The notes beneath the pieces are model-generated. The model was not told the DNA's origin. It saw only the letters and a list, made by a program, of their open reading frames with translations, and did no database searches. 64,000 bases of DNA from Victivallales bacterium (GTDB lineage: Bacteria; Verrucomicrobiota; Lentisphaeria; Victivallales; UBA1829), in NCBI GenBank assembly GCA_016285345.1, contig JAEEQN010000004.1:39858-103857 (forward strand), read 5' to 3'. The translations under genes were made by a program, and so were the position numbers. Shown piece by piece: positions 8,301 to 63,018 of the stretch. How positions within the stretch are numbered: position 1 is the first letter of the stretch; every line of letters begins with the position of its first letter.

Positions 8301-8507
8301 GCGACTTCCGCTTCAACTGTTCGTATGCGGCATAGGTTTCTGCCTGTGCCGCTTTTTCTTGCCTCCGAGTGATTTTGTTCAAAGAAAATATGCATTCGTG
8401 CAAAAAGTATATGGGAAAACGCCCGGAACGTGCTATTGTATGTTCATCAGAAAACCGTATTCTCAAAATCATGCTCCGGCATACGGGGCGAACAACAGGA
8501 GAAAACC

Positions 8508-10184
8508 ATGAGTCCGAGCAAGAAAAACGCCGCTAAGAAGACTGTTGCGAAGAAGTCCGAAGCGAAAAAGACTGTCGCCGCGAAGAAGTCCGCGCCGAAG
8601 AAAGCCGCCGCGAAAAAGGCTGTTCCCGAAGTCTATCCGGGCGAGACCGCGCCGGAACGCCTCATCAAGGCCGACTTCAAGGCTGTGAAGGGCGAGAGGT
8701 CCGATGTCTGGCGCGACTGCGTCGGGGCGGGGCGCATCGGCGAAGGCCTGCGCGATACATGGCGCAAGCAGCTCGCGAAATGCAAGAAGGAACTCGGATT
8801 CCGGTATCTGCGCGCGCACGGTCTCTTCCACGACGAGATGCGCGTGTACAGCGAGGACAAGGCGGGCAATCCGGTGTACAACTTCATGTACATCGACGAT
8901 GTATTCGATTTCCTGCTCTCCATCGGCGTCAAGCCGTTCGTCGAGCTCAGCTTCATGCCCGAAAAGCTCGCCTCCGGCAAGACCACGATCTTCTGGTGGA
9001 AGGCCAACGTGACTCCGCCGAAGAAGCACGAACGCTGGGCCGACCTCATCCGCGCGACCGTTCAGCACTGGACCGAGCGCTACGGCGAGGACGAGGTGAA
9101 GACGTGGCGGTTCGAGGTGTGGAACGAGCCGGATCTGGACGTCTTCTGGGATCCCGGCAAGAAGACCACCATGCTCGACGCCTACCTCGAACTCTACAAG
9201 TACACGGCGCGCGCGGTCAAGTCCGTGAACAAGGCGTATCCGGTCGGCGGTCCCTCCGGCGCCGGGCTCGACTTCATCGCTCCGCTCGTGAAATACTGCC
9301 GCAGGAACCGTCTGCCGCTGGATTTCATCTCGTTCCACCAGTACGGATTCGACCCCGAAAACCCGGCCCTGCCGAAGATCGACCGGTTCGGCGGCAACTA
9401 CATCTACCTCATGAAGAACCTCCGGCACGTGGCCGACTGTTTCAACAGGAAGCTGGAGGACATCCGCAAGAACCTCCGTTGCGACGTTCCTGTTTACATC
9501 ACCGAGTGGCACGCGTCGCCGTCTCCGGTCGACCCGGTGCACGATTCGTATTTCGCCGCGCCGTTCATCCTGGAACAGCTCCGCAACACGGAAAAGATGG
9601 CGTGCATGAGCTTGTGGACGTTCACGGACATCTTCGAGGAATGCGGACCCGCGCCGCGTCCGTTCCACGGCGGATTCGGCCTCATCACGTTCCAGAGCAT
9701 CCCGAAGGCAGCCTACCGCGCGTATCAGTGCCTGGCGGCGCTCGGCCCGACGGAACTCGTCTCCAGCGACGCGTCGTCGTACGTCTGCAAGGACGCGAAC
9801 GGCGGCGTGCAGGCGCTCTTCTGGGACCTCAGCCATCCCACGCAGGGCGGCAGGATCAGCAACCAGGACACCTTCTTCGATCCGCATCCGGCGAAAGATA
9901 AAGGCCATGCGCTGTTCAGCATCACCGGGCTCAAGGCCGGCGAATACGACCTGCGCGTGACCCGGATCGGCTACCGCGCGGGCGACGCGTATTCCGCGTG
10001 GCTGGAGGAGGACGGCGCGAAGACGGACATCAGCCGGGAGGAGATCGCACGCCTGACGCGCGTTTCCCAGCTCCGCCCGATGTACCGTGCGCAGGTCACG
10101 GTCATGAAGGGCGAGGAGTTCCAGCTCGGCCTGGACATGAAACAGAACGACGTTTATTTCGTGGAGCTGATCCCGCTGAAATAA
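8508..10184 (+). CDS. GH39-like glycoside hydrolase with Lys/Ala-rich histone-H1-like N-terminal tail
   Basis: MSPSKKNAAKKTVAKKSEAKKTVAAKKSAPKKAAAKK tail, then a TIM-barrel hydrolase with FEVWNEPDL (acid/base) and VYITEWHAS (nucleophile). ATG at 8508 is preceded by caggag. Confidence 0.8.
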   Translation: MSPSKKNAAKKTVAKKSEAKKTVAAKKSAPKKAAAKKAVPEVYPGETAPERLIKADFKAVKGERSDVWRDCVGAGRIGEGLRDTWRKQLAKCKKELGFRYLRAHGLFHDEMRVYSEDKAGNPVYNFMYIDDVFDFLLSIGVKPFVELSFMPEKLASGKTTIFWWKANVTPPKKHERWADLIRATVQHWTERYGEDEVKTWRFEVWNEPDLDVFWDPGKKTTMLDAYLELYKYTARAVKSVNKAYPVGGPSGAGLDFIAPLVKYCRRNRLPLDFISFHQYGFDPENPALPKIDRFGGNYIYLMKNLRHVADCFNRKLEDIRKNLRCDVPVYITEWHASPSPVDPVHDSYFAAPFILEQLRNTEKMACMSLWTFTDIFEECGPAPRPFHGGFGLITFQSIPKAAYRAYQCLAALGPTELVSSDASSYVCKDANGGVQALFWDLSHPTQGGRISNQDTFFDPHPAKDKGHALFSITGLKAGEYDLRVTRIGYRAGDAYSAWLEEDGAKTDISREEIARLTRVSQLRPMYRAQVTVMKGEEFQLGLDMKQNDVYFVELIPLK

Positions 10185-10231
10185 GGAGGACAAGTCCTCC
10201 ACTGAGGCAGTGCCGGGCTTCGCTCCGGCAC
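10185..10231. repeat. Dispersed multi-hairpin (REP-like) element, copy 1
   Basis: GGAGGAC-AA-GTCCTCC, ACTG-AGG-CAGT, GTGCCGG-GCTTCGCT-CCGGCAC. Begins at the base after the TAA stop of the upstream CDS. Confidence 0.85.
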
Positions 10232-22311: not shown

Positions 22312-24378
22312 ATGGCCGATACCGTTAAAACACTGACCGTCAACGGACGGGAAGTCACGTTCACGAATGAACGCAACCTCCTGGAAGTCATCCGCAAAGC
22401 CGGGATCGAGATCCCGACCTTCTGCTACCACTCCGAACTGAGCATCTACGGCGCCTGCCGCCTCTGCCTCGTCCTCGTCGAGGGCAAAGGCATCATGGCG
22501 TCCTGCTCCACCGCCCCCGCGCCCGGCATGGTCGTCCACACGGACACCAAGGAAATCCGCGACATGCGCAAGATCAGCGTGGAACTCCTGCTCGCCAACC
22601 ACAACCGCGAATGCCCGACCTGCGCCCGCAACGAGAACTGCACCCTGCAGCGCATCGCCCACCAGCTCGGCGTCCAGGACATCCGCTTCAAATCCGTGAA
22701 GAAGGACGACCCGATCGACTTCTCCTCCCCGTCGCTCGTCCGCGACCCGAACAAGTGCGTGCTCTGCGGCGACTGCGTGCGCGTCTGCTCCGAACTCCAG
22801 GGCATCGGCGCGATCGACTTCTCGAACCGCGGCTCCAACGCCCGCGTGGCCCCGGCCTTCGGCGCTTCCCTCGGCGCGGTCGAGTGCGTGAACTGCGGCC
22901 AGTGCGCCGCCGTCTGCCCCACCGGCGCGATCGTCCCGAAACAGGACCGCAACCGCGTGTGGGACGCCCTGTACGATCCCGGCAAGACCGTCGTGGTCCA
23001 GATCGCCCCGGCCGTCCGCGTGGCGCTGGGCGAATACTTCGGCGCGAAGCCGGGCGAGAACGTGGCCGGCAAGCTCGTCGCCGCCCTGAAGCTCATGGGC
23101 TTCAAACACGTCTATGACACCAGCTTCTCCGCCGATATGACCATCTTCGAGGAAGCCACCGAGCTCATCGACCGCATCGCCAACGGCGGCACGCTCCCGA
23201 TGTTCACCAGCTGCTGCCCCGCCTGGGTCAAGTTCGCCGAGATCTACTACCCCGAAATGATCCCCCACATCTCCAGCTGCCGTTCCCCGCAGGCCATGTT
23301 CGGCTCCATCGCCAAGAAGGTCCTGCCCGAACAGCTCGGCTGCAAGCGCGAAGACCTTGTGGTCGTCTCCATCATGCCCTGCACGGCGAAGAAGTTCGAG
23401 GCCCAGCTTCCGAAGTTCGCCGTCGACGGCAAGCCGGAAGTCGACATCGTCGTGACCACCAGCGAAGTCCAGCGCATGATCAACTCCATGGGCATCAAGC
23501 TCAATGAGCTCCAGCCCGAAGCGTTCGACATGCCCATGGGATTCGCCACCGGCGGCGGCGTCATCTTCGGCGCGTCCGGCGGCGTCATGGAAGCCGCGCT
23601 CCGCTACGCGGTCGAAAAGCTCGACGGCAAACCGCTCGCATCCGTCGACTTCAAGGCCGTCCGCGGCATGAACACCCTCAAGGAAGCCACCGTGACCGCG
23701 GCCGGCAGGGAAATCCGCGTGGCGGTCGTCCACGGCCTCGCCAATGCCAAGCGCCTCATCAACGACGTCCGCTCCGGCAAGGCCCACTACGACTTCGTCG
23801 AAGTCATGGCTTGCCCCGGCGGCTGCATCTCCGGCGGCGGCCAGCCCGTCGGCGTCACCGACGCGATCCGCGTCCAGCGCCAGCAGGGCCTCTACGCGGC
23901 CGACAAGTCCCAGCAGGTCCAGAAGAGCCAGGACAACTTCCTGGTCGACCAGTGCTACAAGGACCACATCGGCGGCAAGCCCGGCTCCCACGAAGCGCAC
24001 CACCTGCTGCACACGGTCTACCAGAACCGCAGCCAAATCTTCGACGCGAAGATTCCGATCATGCGCGGCACCGCCCGGAACCGCTTCATGATCACCGTCA
24101 CGATCTGCGCCAAGCAGGACAACTGCCCCGGCCAGCTCCTGATCGGCATGATCTCCGAATACGTCCGCAACAAGAACTACACGGACAAGGTCGACATGGA
24201 CGCCGCGTTCTCGTCCCGCCCCGAACAGGACGGCACGATCTGCGTGACCATCGGCGACGAAGTCGTCGAGCGCACGAAGTTCAGAAACGCCCTGAACACG
24301 CTGGAACAGCTCCAGAACCAGGCTGCGTTCGAGACGATCAAGAAGAAGATCGACGAAAGCGTCGCCAAGCTCGGCTGA
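22312..24378 (+). CDS. hydA: Electron-bifurcating [FeFe]-hydrogenase catalytic subunit HydA with C-terminal extension
   Basis: N-terminal [2Fe-2S] ferredoxin; two [4Fe-4S]; intact H-cluster loops FTSCCPAW, IMPCTAKKFE, VMACPGGCISGGGQP. Confidence 0.95.
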   Translation: MADTVKTLTVNGREVTFTNERNLLEVIRKAGIEIPTFCYHSELSIYGACRLCLVLVEGKGIMASCSTAPAPGMVVHTDTKEIRDMRKISVELLLANHNRECPTCARNENCTLQRIAHQLGVQDIRFKSVKKDDPIDFSSPSLVRDPNKCVLCGDCVRVCSELQGIGAIDFSNRGSNARVAPAFGASLGAVECVNCGQCAAVCPTGAIVPKQDRNRVWDALYDPGKTVVVQIAPAVRVALGEYFGAKPGENVAGKLVAALKLMGFKHVYDTSFSADMTIFEEATELIDRIANGGTLPMFTSCCPAWVKFAEIYYPEMIPHISSCRSPQAMFGSIAKKVLPEQLGCKREDLVVVSIMPCTAKKFEAQLPKFAVDGKPEVDIVVTTSEVQRMINSMGIKLNELQPEAFDMPMGFATGGGVIFGASGGVMEAALRYAVEKLDGKPLASVDFKAVRGMNTLKEATVTAAGREIRVAVVHGLANAKRLINDVRSGKAHYDFVEVMACPGGCISGGGQPVGVTDAIRVQRQQGLYAADKSQQVQKSQDNFLVDQCYKDHIGGKPGSHEAHHLLHTVYQNRSQIFDAKIPIMRGTARNRFMITVTICAKQDNCPGQLLIGMISEYVRNKNYTDKVDMDAAFSSRPEQDGTICVTIGDEVVERTKFRNALNTLEQLQNQAAFETIKKKIDESVAKLG

Positions 24379-24425
24379 GGAGGACAAGTCCTCCACTGAA
24401 GCAGTGCGCGGCTCCGCTCGCGCAC
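24379..24425. repeat. Dispersed multi-hairpin (REP-like) element, copy 2
   Basis: GGAGGAC-AA-GTCCTCC, ACTG-AAG-CAGT, GTGCGCG-GCTCCGCT-CGCGCAC. Begins at the base after the hydA TGA stop. Confidence 0.85.
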
Positions 24426-24444: not shown

Positions 24445-24508
24445 GTGCTCTCGCGTAGCAGAGCACAGCATCGACACTGCTTGCAGTGGCCCGGCTCCGC
24501 CCGGGCAC
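24445..24508. repeat. Further hairpin modules related to the REP-like element
   Basis: GTGCTCT-cgcgtagc-AGAGCAC, CACTGC-TT-GCAGTG, GTGgCCCG-GCTCCGC-CCGGGCAC in succession. Confidence 0.6.
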
Positions 24509-38354: not shown

Positions 38355-38370
38355 TTCTTTCCTCAATTAA

Positions 38371-38711
38371 CCTAAGCCGTTCGCGTCTCTGCGGTGAGGG
38401 AAATCTACCTTACTGAAAAAGAAGAGGGAGGAACCATTTACTCCCCCCCCAAAAAAGGTTTTTGCCGTTCGCATTTCTACGGTGAGGTAAATCAGCCCTG
38501 TTCGCCCCATTTTTAACCTCAGCCGTTTGCGCCTCCGCGGTGAGGTGAATCCACCTCGACAATCTAAAAAACTTAGCCGTTCGCGTCTCAGCAGTGAGGT
38601 GAATCCACCTCATTCTTCTAAAAACTCAGCCGTTCGCGTCTCAGCGGTCAGAGAAGAATCAGTACCGCAATCTAAACTCTTCTGCTATTCGCGTCTCGCG
38701 GTCAAGTAATC
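38371..38711 (+). repeat. Cluster of six imperfect direct repeats, consensus approx. cYtAGCCGTTCGCGTCTCaGCGGTGAGGTGAATCCACCTC
   Basis: Copies at about 38371, 38459, 38517, 38572, 38625 and 38680; several contain GAGGTG-AATC-CACCTC. Confidence 0.85.
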
Positions 38712-39662: not shown

Positions 39663-39772
39663 TCAGGATTTTTTCGGGCGCTTGATGCTGGAACGGGAGG
39701 GGGCTCGGTGCGGGAATCAGGATTTTTTCGGGCGCTTGATGCTGGAACGGGAGGGGGGCTCGGTGCGCGGGT
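39663..39772. repeat. 54-bp tandem duplication of the hrpB 3' end
   Basis: tcaggattttttcgggcgcttgatgctggaacgggaggggg(g)ctcggtgcg occurs at 39663 and again at 39717. Confidence 0.9.
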
Positions 39773-42359
39773 CCTCGGGCCAGTTGTGCTTGGGGTAACG
39801 GCCGCGCATGTCTTTCCGCACGAGGAAATACGAGCCGTCCCAGAATTCGTCCAGGTTGCGCGTGATCTGCACGGTGCGCATGGCGGGCGAAAGCAGGTCG
39901 AACACGAGCGGGACGCGTCCGCCGGCGATCTTCGGCGAATGCGCGAGTCCGAAGACCTCCTGAAGCTTCACTCGCACCATGGGGGCGGCGGGGTCGGAAT
40001 AGTCGATGGCGATGTGCGAGCCGCTCGGGACCTCGAAGCGTTCGGGCGCGAGCGAGTTCAGCGTGGACTGGGCTTTCGGCGGGAGCATGGCGGCGAAGAT
40101 CGAACGGTAATCCAGGTCCGCGAGCTTGTCAAGGCGGCTGACGCCGCCGAGGTGCGGCGCGAGCCAGTCTTCGAGCGTGTCCAGCAGGTGCTGTTCCGAG
40201 CAGTCGGGGAAGCCCTCGCAGCCGTGCACGTGCAGGAACTGGATGCGCCGGAGAAATTTGAGCTGAGCGTGGGTGATGCCGAGCGAGGCGAACCCGCGTT
40301 TGCGGACGGCGGCGATCAGAAGGACCGCGGTGTCGTCGCCGGGGCGCAGATTGGACAGCTTGCGTTCAATCGTGAGCGAACCGACCGCCTTCACGTTGAA
40401 CACGCGGACGCACAGCGCATCGTCGTCCCAGACCGTTTCGCGGCGCGTGCGGAAGAGGTCCGGCAGGGCGGCTTCGAGCTCGGCGATGTCGAGCGGGAGC
40501 GCGAGGCGGATCGTGGGCTGTCCGGAGAGTCCGCCGGAATCCGCCACGGCGAGGTATTCCGAATCGCGGAGCGGGTCGCGTGCGCCGAGCTTCGCGGTCA
40601 TGCCGTTGGAGAGCTGGTATTCGGGGCGGTCGCCGCCGGTGCGACGTCGCGCGATACGGTCGGGGTATGCCGCGGCAAGGACAAGTCCTTGACTGATATT
40701 GTGCCGGGCTTCGCTTCCGGCACGGGGAGGCGGGGCCTCCACTGCGGTTGTGCCGGGCTTCGCTCCGGCACGGGAGGACAAGTCCTCCACTGCGGCAGTG
40801 CCCGGCTTCGCTCGGGCACGGGAGGACAAGTCCTCCACTGCGGCGGTGCCGGGCTTCGCTCCGGCACGAGGAAGGGCGGCTTCGAGTTGGGAAACGGCCT
40901 GTCGGATACGGGAAAGCGTCTGACGGTCCGCAGGCAGGGCGGACGCCTTGTCGAGCACGGCGAGGCGTTCTGCGAGGTCGGCGGTCTGCGGATTGACGAG
41001 CGGATCGCGGTCGGACAGGATTGCGGCAATCTGAAGCGCCTCCCGGCGGAGTCCGTGCTCGTCGGCGAAGAGAATGGCGTTCGCGAGGCGCGGATGCACG
41101 GGCAGACGGTGCAGGAGCTTGCCGTGCGGCGTGATCTGCCCGGTCTTTGCCGAGATCGCGCCGAGTTCGGTCAGCAGGTCGAACGCGTAGTCGAGCTTGA
41201 CCTCGGGCGGCGTCGTCATCCAGGGCAGGGCGGCGGCCTTTTCGCGGACCACGCCCCAATGCGCCAGCTCCAGCGCGAGCTCGGTGAGGTCGGCATGTTC
41301 GATCTCCGGCGGGGCGAAATCCGGCATGGCGTTCTGTTCGTATTCGTGCCAGAGACGGATGCAGACGCCCGGCGCGGTGCGTCCGGCGCGCCCCCGGCGC
41401 TGTTCGGCGGACGCCTTCGATATCTTGACCGTGCGGAGCTGGTCCATGCCGGACGCGGGGGAGAAGAACGGCATGCGCGCGAGGCCGGAGTCGACGACGA
41501 TGCGGATGCCGGGGATGGTGATGCTGGTCTCGGCGACGGGCGTGGCGAGGATGATGCGGCGGCGGTCCGACGGCGCGAACACGCGGTCCTGTTCGGCGGC
41601 GGAGAGCGAGCCGTAGAGCGGGAGGACCTCGAAATCGTGGCGCATGGAGGCGAGTTCGGCGGCGGTGCGGCGGATTTCCGCCTCGCCGGGGAGAAAAACG
41701 AGCGCGTCGCCTTCGTGTTCGCGCATGGCGTCCAGCACGACCGAGGCGGCGTGCGGTTCGACGGGAGCACCGGGCTTCAGGGGCGCGTAGCTCACGCCGA
41801 CCTCGAAACAGCGTCCCGAGGCGTTGACGATCTCGGTATCGTTTCCGAGCAACCCGGCGGCGGAATCCGCATCGAGCGTGGCGGACATGAGCGCGATGCG
41901 GAGGTCGTCGCGGAGGACGGAGCGCGCGTCAAGCGTGAGTGCGAGCGCGAGATCGGCGTGAATGCTGCGTTCGTGGAATTCGTCGAAAATGACGGCGGAG
42001 ACGCCTTCCAGCGACGGGTCGCGCTGGAGCATGCGCGTGAGCAGCGCCTCGGTCACGACCTCGATGCGCGTGTCCGCCGAAACGAGCGTCTCGAAGCGCG
42101 TCCGGTAGCCCACGGTCTTCCCCGGCGGTTCGTTCAGGAGCGACGCCATGCGCCGTGCCGCGGCGCGCGCGGCGATGCGGCGGGGTTCCAGCATGACGAT
42201 CTTCCCCTCGGGCAGCACGCCCGGTTCGAGCAGGGCGAGCGGCACGACAGTGCTTTTGCCCGCGCCGGGTTCCGCCGTGATGACCAGCGGACGGCAGGCG
42301 CGCGCGGCGTCCGCGATCCGCGGCAGGACGGCGTCGACGGGGAGACCGGAGCGGATCAT
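39717..42359 (-). CDS. hrpB: ATP-dependent helicase HrpB with internal tandem peptide repeat
   Basis: VITAEPGAGKSTVVPLALLE, IFDEFHERSIHADLALAL, EQRRGRAGRTAPGVCIRLW, AAAYPDRIARRR, HrpB C-terminal domain. Confidence 0.93.
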   Translation of the reverse strand: MIRSGLPVDAVLPRIADAARACRPLVITAEPGAGKSTVVPLALLEPGVLPEGKIVMLEPRRIAARAAARRMASLLNEPPGKTVGYRTRFETLVSADTRIEVVTEALLTRMLQRDPSLEGVSAVIFDEFHERSIHADLALALTLDARSVLRDDLRIALMSATLDADSAAGLLGNDTEIVNASGRCFEVGVSYAPLKPGAPVEPHAASVVLDAMREHEGDALVFLPGEAEIRRTAAELASMRHDFEVLPLYGSLSAAEQDRVFAPSDRRRIILATPVAETSITIPGIRIVVDSGLARMPFFSPASGMDQLRTVKISKASAEQRRGRAGRTAPGVCIRLWHEYEQNAMPDFAPPEIEHADLTELALELAHWGVVREKAAALPWMTTPPEVKLDYAFDLLTELGAISAKTGQITPHGKLLHRLPVHPRLANAILFADEHGLRREALQIAAILSDRDPLVNPQTADLAERLAVLDKASALPADRQTLSRIRQAVSQLEAALPRAGAKPGTAAVEDLSSRARAKPGTAAVEDLSSRAGAKPGTTAVEAPPPRAGSEARHNISQGLVLAAAYPDRIARRRTGGDRPEYQLSNGMTAKLGARDPLRDSEYLAVADSGGLSGQPTIRLALPLDIAELEAALPDLFRTRRETVWDDDALCVRVFNVKAVGSLTIERKLSNLRPGDDTAVLLIAAVRKRGFASLGITHAQLKFLRRIQFLHVHGCEGFPDCSEQHLLDTLEDWLAPHLGGVSRLDKLADLDYRSIFAAMLPPKAQSTLNSLAPERFEVPSGSHIAIDYSDPAAPMVRVKLQEVFGLAHSPKIAGGRVPLVFDLLSPAMRTVQITRNLDEFWDGSYFLVRKDMRGRYPKHNWPEDPRTEPPSRSSIKRPKKS
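40676..40868. repeat. Four tandem copies of the REP-like element, about 48 bp each, inside hrpB
   Basis: Hairpin A at 40676, 40726, 40773, 40821; hairpin C at 40701, 40750, 40798, 40846. Encodes RAGAKPGTAAVEDLSS repeats on the minus strand. Confidence 0.92.
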
Positions 42360-62964: not shown

Positions 62965-63018
62965 GGAGGGCAAGCCCTCCTCTGCGGTAGTTTCCGGCGC
63001 GTGCCGCGCTACGGAACC
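62965..63018. repeat. Divergent copy of the REP-like element
   Basis: GGAGGGC-AA-GCCCTCC, tctgcggtagt, then GCGCG-TGC-CGCGC inside an imperfect GTTtCCG/CGGAAC stem. Confidence 0.6.

Follow-up and report, generated by a model that had tools for sequence, protein, structure and literature searches.

A probable REP-dimer-like hairpin repeat of gene 3' ends in a genus of rumen Lentisphaeria

Directly behind the stop codon of a gene for a GH39 glycoside hydrolase in a Victivallales bacterium begins a short sequence that folds into hairpins and recurs elsewhere in the same DNA. What kind of repeat is this, how might it have spread, and why does it start at the very first base after a stop codon? 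We addressed these questions in the 64,000-nt stretch of DNA that holds the gene (the window) and in related genomes, labeled here G000 (the window's genome), G001, and so on. A preliminary description had placed a copy at 10185-10231 against the GH39 stop and had quoted stem variants for other copies in the window. The former is exact as stated, and the variants are present at 24379-24425 and 40676-40867. The relevant features, with scores of the element and its parts from a covariance model, are as follows.

8430..10184, plus strand: GH39 glycoside hydrolase gene (PF01229, E = 5.9e-101), whose TAA abuts copy 1
10185..10231, plus strand: element copy 1, adjoining the GH39 stop (74.3 bits, E = 8e-18; RNA and DNA folding)
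22312..24378, plus strand: gene for an NADH-dependent [FeFe] hydrogenase of group A6, whose TGA abuts copy 2
24379..24425, plus strand: element copy 2 (72.3 bits), its first base directly after the hydrogenase TGA
24445..24472, minus strand: loose hairpin C of the element family, in a composite array (24.3 bits)
24473..24508, plus strand: weak or partial further unit of the composite array at 24445-24508 (19.2 bits, E = 0.002)
39717..42359, minus strand: hrpB ATP-dependent helicase gene (TIGR01970, 850 bits)
40676..40723, plus strand: tandem unit 1 in hrpB, antisense to the gene and in frame (59.6 bits)
40725..40771, plus strand: tandem unit 2 in hrpB (60.2 bits)
40773..40819, plus strand: tandem unit 3 in hrpB (75.4 bits)
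40821..40867, plus strand: tandem unit 4 in hrpB (70.4 bits)
62965..63017, plus strand: degenerate copy with hairpin A intact and hairpin C altered (35.3 bits)

The window holds six clear copies (at 10185, at 24379, and the four in tandem at 40676-40867), in addition to the degenerate copy at 62965 and the loose parts at 24445-24508; the composite array at 24445..24472 also has a hairpin of the CACTGCAAGCAGTG type. The real start codon of the GH39 gene may be internal to the interval called. Two further repeats were observed in the window. Positions 38369-38700 contain another array, of five or six units (GCCGTTCGCGTCTC..GCGGTGAGG) spaced 53-54 in part, and a few distant matches to it occur in other parts of the genome. 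The 3' end of hrpB (39663-39757) has a 41-nt stretch that is exactly duplicated, 54 nt apart, one copy spanning the C-terminal codons of the gene.

Copy 1 consists of hairpin A (10185-10200; GGAGGACAAGTCCTCC), a linker of 9 nt, and hairpin C (10210-10231; GTGCCGGGCTTCGCTCCGGCAC), and its first base is directly 3' of the GH39 TAA. Across the family the unit is about 47 nt long, its two covarying hairpins, A and C, being joined by a fixed linker that measures 9 nt in 256 of 259 copies. The linker starts with ACTG in 195 of the 259 and ends, if the first G of hairpin C is included, in GCAG (75 copies), exact GTAG (73 copies, or 28%), or GTTG (37 copies); that is, the right tag reads G[TC]AG in 148. 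Units stand alone or form direct tandem arrays whose period is 47-49 nt. The preliminary description had recognized three adjacent palindromes. Two of these, hairpins A and C, hold up, but the middle one, ACTGnnnCAGT, does not: its right half varies, and in both RNA and DNA folding, where the unit was stabler than its shuffles (z of -3.1 and -3.5), only hairpins A and C were paired. Given the variable linker ends and a reading of both strands, the middle segment is better regarded as two inverted tags that face each other. The order A-ACTG-N-G[TC]AG-C is the layout of head-to-head REP dimers, and head-to-head dimers are predominant among REPs (PMC3733652).

How widespread is the unit? The covariance model, built from 62 copies, yielded 134 matches at E<=0.1 in the 2.78-Mb genome of the window, 106 of them at E<=1e-4 and the best at 1.8e-16. 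The genome scan that the preliminary description had proposed thus returned far more than a few copies, and the match numbers and E-values exclude a chance origin. (Further analyses of this genome used the stretches around matches.) Among 13 genomes of the genus, 12, including that of the window, have 61-139 copies each; the model found none in G007, which is placed in the same genus, and none in 23 genomes from nine other genera of the same family. Because the hrpB of G007 is only 62-63% identical, G007 may be the earliest branch. An exact-pattern search of 84,980 species genomes returned 94 stretches. The records listed represent 12 assemblies and are titled rumen Lentisphaeria or uncultured bacteria of the RUG series, apart from one titled Bacteroidales (ONQP01), which is the sole listed holder outside Lentisphaeria and unnamed bins and is perhaps a misassigned contig. 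As sampled, then, the element family is restricted to one genus of rumen Lentisphaeria. The family is wider than the covariance model, since hairpins of the CACCGCAAGCGGTG and CACACAGAGTGTG types share the linker and hairpin C. Composite arrays at four loci (L019, L026, L080, and L192) mix the element with these further types.

The preliminary description had also called for a check of location bias, and there is one, toward the 3' ends of upstream sense genes. In contexts taken from a codon-usage gene caller, the upstream gene was in the sense orientation for 85 units and antisense for 26, and only seven units lay in divergent gaps. Counted independently of gene calls, a stop triplet ended exactly where hairpin A starts in 22 of the 93 first units from the window's genome (~2 expected; P = 6e-17) and in 14 of 105 units from relatives (about 2 expected; P = 1e-7), the latter having been picked by a pattern that contains AGGACAAGTCCT and hence being biased to that stem. 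A stop triplet fell within -3..+2 in 8 of 27 units of G005, and in some units the stem itself opens with TGA or TAA. About two thirds of units have no abutting stop. Paralogous proteins ending in ITEPLK or similar were observed at five loci (L247, L202, L077, L081, and L100), and several copies have a unit directly after the stop.

Two simple accounts of the abutment were rejected. The first takes TRA as a plain DNA target, in which case intergenic TRA triplets should outnumber gene stops, yet among the 66 clean-stem units that have a stop triplet at -3..+2, an open frame of 70 codons or more precedes 58. The second invokes compaction of the genome to zero spacing and was discarded because convergent stops show no spike at the free end of hairpin C, with 1 of 197 at distance 0. 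Units that abut stops did not differ in decay from the others (paired fractions of 0.94 and 0.96, P = 0.24), and in the element-free G007 a stop hairpin stood at -3..+1 in 0 of 67 genes, a small sample for a genus-wide habit. Functional stops, the sense orientation, one fixed end, and zero distance might together reflect insertion or retention linked to translation termination, a conjecture that we offer tentatively and hold to be improbable; if it were correct, mobile DNA would be connected to termination. Far less probable still is that the units are intrinsic transcription terminators copied after genes. Their 3' location and strong hairpins would fit, but no T run follows the last unit (T accounts for 5% at +1 and 17-21% from +2 to +5), and further down from both the GH39 and the hydrogenase gene a terminator-like hairpin distinct from the unit, with a T run, can be seen by eye.

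Orthologous sites in relatives are not uniformly occupied. At the hydrogenase orthologue, G000 and G001 have a unit, G005 and G009 keep the stop alone, and in G010 and G003 a hairpin of another type abuts that same stop. For GH39, the unit is again present in G000 and G001, whereas G005 and G010 have offset or decayed forms and G008, G012, G003, and G002 lack it. Thus, units come and go beside unchanged protein ends. No target duplication was evident by eye at the few empty sites compared. Genes that are 88-97% identical, whether from different species or paralogous, can differ in the type of hairpin C that they have at zero distance, and such sequence comparisons point to replacement or repeated insertion, plus change in place.

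The stems themselves bear on what maintains the unit. We measured covariation in 125 matches of the window's genome, with shuffled and slid partners as controls. In this alignment, which was made with the covariance model and therefore leans to structure, standard pairs filled 94.0% of pair cells (79.9 +/- 0.5% in shuffles and 28-63% with slid partners), 12 of 15 pairs had changed on both sides in at least one copy each (6 of 6 in hairpin A and 6 of 9 in hairpin C), cells with a both-sided change numbered 206 as against 51 in shuffles, and the covariation score was 0.316, compared with 0.102 for shuffled and at most 0.093 for slid partners. Copies found by sequence alone have, by eye, the same stem changes. 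Paired stem changes beyond chance, as the preliminary description had claimed, are therefore borne out by covariation well above both controls, and its conserved pairing with kept loops is confirmed by the same 125 matches and by the model scan. It had gone on to conclude that selection acts on structure; the conserved pairing stands, but covariation alone does not imply selection, because hairpin-templated mutation yields an identical pattern.

Template switching within a hairpin can yield covariation. Might the paired changes be mutational only, one arm being recopied from the other by quasipalindrome template switching, with no selection and with the units as inert debris? The changes are mostly whole-pair flips (G-C to C-G) with few one-sided intermediates, and at the hydrogenase site one stem pair is flipped while the upstream 250 nt are 97.6% identical. 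Moreover, the same unit of hrpB alternates by species between CAAGG/CCTTG (two species) and CGAGG/CCTCG (three species), which makes it the clearest candidate for change in place. Replacement by another copy yields identical flips, however, and recopying leaves several features unexplained: the loops are conserved, the linker is fixed, there are tags, the units are dispersed, and stop codons show a spike. We therefore consider a purely mutational origin possible but rather unlikely.

A second explanation is that the stop hairpin is a functional RNA at mRNA 3' ends, selected in place for termination, stalling, or decay, with the covariation as the mark of selection on RNA. It would account for the exact abutment of one particular end on the sense strand, for the 85-to-26 excess of sense upstream genes, and for the keeping of place while stems change (TGA with TGAGGGC/GCCCTCA in one species, TAA with TAAGGC/GCCTTA in another). 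It is at odds with the two thirds of units that lie away from stops, with the frequent absence of the unit from orthologues, with an uncompensated stem change in one GH39 orthologue, with units that are antisense within coding sequence, and with the window's lack of any Rfam match at the gathering score. G-U pairs, too, are scarce, making up 1.0% of hairpin C pairs and 5.4% of pairs in 16 tRNA acceptor stems, a small control (Fisher P = 0.0015); this speaks, weakly, for constrained pairing in DNA, or for arm-to-arm repair, rather than for selection on RNA. On balance a functional RNA seems to us unlikely.

A minority of units lie inside genes. The hrpB gene has four units in the window's genome and three in G004; four species have two, G001 has one, G009 has one that is decayed, and G011 and G002 lack units there. 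In-frame repeat expansion inside a helicase gene thus provides a natural series of 0, 1, 2, 3, and 4 units. The 48-nt period of the array keeps the frame and encodes a 16-aa repeat resembling RAGAKPGTAAVEDLSS. A 724-aa glycosyltransferase-like protein contains RAVAKQGTASEEDLSS, with orientation, frame, and peptide matching those in hrpB, and another gene in three species takes its C-terminus and stop from unit sequence (EYVRRGGQVLH, or ...QALY). At two loci with the element in frame in a glycosyltransferase-like protein (L203, 2001-2047, and L124, 2474-2520), the element peptide is identical at 15 of 16 residues compared with 66% for the whole protein.

What could have moved the unit? A REP-associated tyrosine transposase (RAYT) had been predicted in the genome, a prediction that failed: the RAYT profile NF047646 was over its cut-off in none of the 13 genomes of the genus, and the window's own genome lacks Y1_Tnp. 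Y1_Tnp does occur in 4 of the 13, at full length only in G012, whose gene scores as an IS200 TnpA (151.5 bits, cut-off 55) that failed as a REP transposase (32, cut-off 80) and whose locus (3.4 kb) has no element copy. Because five carrier genomes are at least 92% complete and none has a full Y1 gene (two have fragments), assembly incompleteness alone is an unlikely reason for the missing RAYT. An autonomous element between adjacent units was rejected, as the translations of genes predicted in six such intervals look by eye like ordinary host genes, and so was viral carriage, since no viral contig held the element. That the units belong to the classical GTAG REPs or REPINs and that a RAYT still present moves them is thus very unlikely and already largely refuted for these assemblies. 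The dimer layout, the GTAG of 73 copies, and the visual likeness of GGTAGTGCCGGGC to GGTAGCGCCGGGC, a REP of Stenotrophomonas (PMC2817692), speak for it, but against it are the empty RAYT search, an only full Y1 gene that is IS200-like with no unit nearby, and a hairpin A tag that is CAGT instead.

The reading that we prefer, with a probability of about 0.6, is that the element is a genus-specific, REP-dimer-like (REPIN-like) hairpin DNA repeat of gene 3' ends. Units would spread as DNA hairpins, most likely via a single-strand step that recognizes the hairpin, as has been proposed for REPs, catalyzed by an enzyme that has since been lost or is yet to be found. Stem identity would drift with pairing kept if recognition needs the hairpin, if one arm is recopied from the other, or both, and copies would persist at gene 3' ends as the places where they do least harm. 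Side effects on mRNA near the stop are likely: a transcribed unit would set a stable hairpin beside the stop, and termination could be slowed or the mRNA end protected, as happens with some E. coli REPs. Against this preferred reading stand the lack of a RAYT over its cut-off in the 13 genomes, an exact GTAG in only 73 of 259 copies, and the missing target duplication at the few empty sites compared by eye; in addition, a general model of DNA mobility predicts no spike at functional stop codons. The unit works like a REPIN but is not demonstrated to be one, because the GTAG tag and the RAYT were both tested and neither test came out positive.

Comparison with known repeats places the family close to several of them. 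Like GTAG REPs and REPINs (PMC3733652, PMC2817692, PMC3116915), it comprises short palindromes in tens to hundreds of copies at 3' gene ends, arranged as head-to-head dimers with facing tags, and its stems vary while the fold stays. Unlike them, it has an exact GTAG in 28% of hairpin C tags and CAGT on the other arm, a linker fixed at 9 nt, two hairpins that are unlike each other, arrays in direct tandem, and no RAYT over the cut-off. With CGTC REPs (PMC3733652) it shares tagged palindromic dimers without a dedicated transposase, some of them in ORFs, but it belongs to a different phylum and its tag is not CGTC, which is missing among the 4-mers at the foot of hairpin C (the hairpin A tag is CAGT in 195 of 259). 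Rickettsia palindromic elements (PMC10969869) likewise are palindromic, insert in frame into protein genes, and have no assigned mobilizer, but they are about 150 bp long, whereas the present unit is 47 bp and its intragenic copies are a minority. As regards the terminal inverted repeats and target duplication of MITEs, the two ends of the present unit are different hairpins, and duplication was not seen by eye at the few empty sites compared. The family therefore adds a REP-dimer-like repeat, without a known mobilizer, to a group lacking a described example in the literature searched. REPs that lie no more than 15 nt from a stop lower translation in E. coli (PMC12306157), and the present units resemble these in setting a stable hairpin close behind the stop but differ in that a distance of exactly zero stands far above any other. 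As far as the literature searched goes, no REP or MITE is reported to have such a zero-distance link to functional stops, and this exact abutment is the part that known families leave unexplained; it provides a testable genome feature, in which one end of a putatively mobile hairpin meets the stop codon without a gap.
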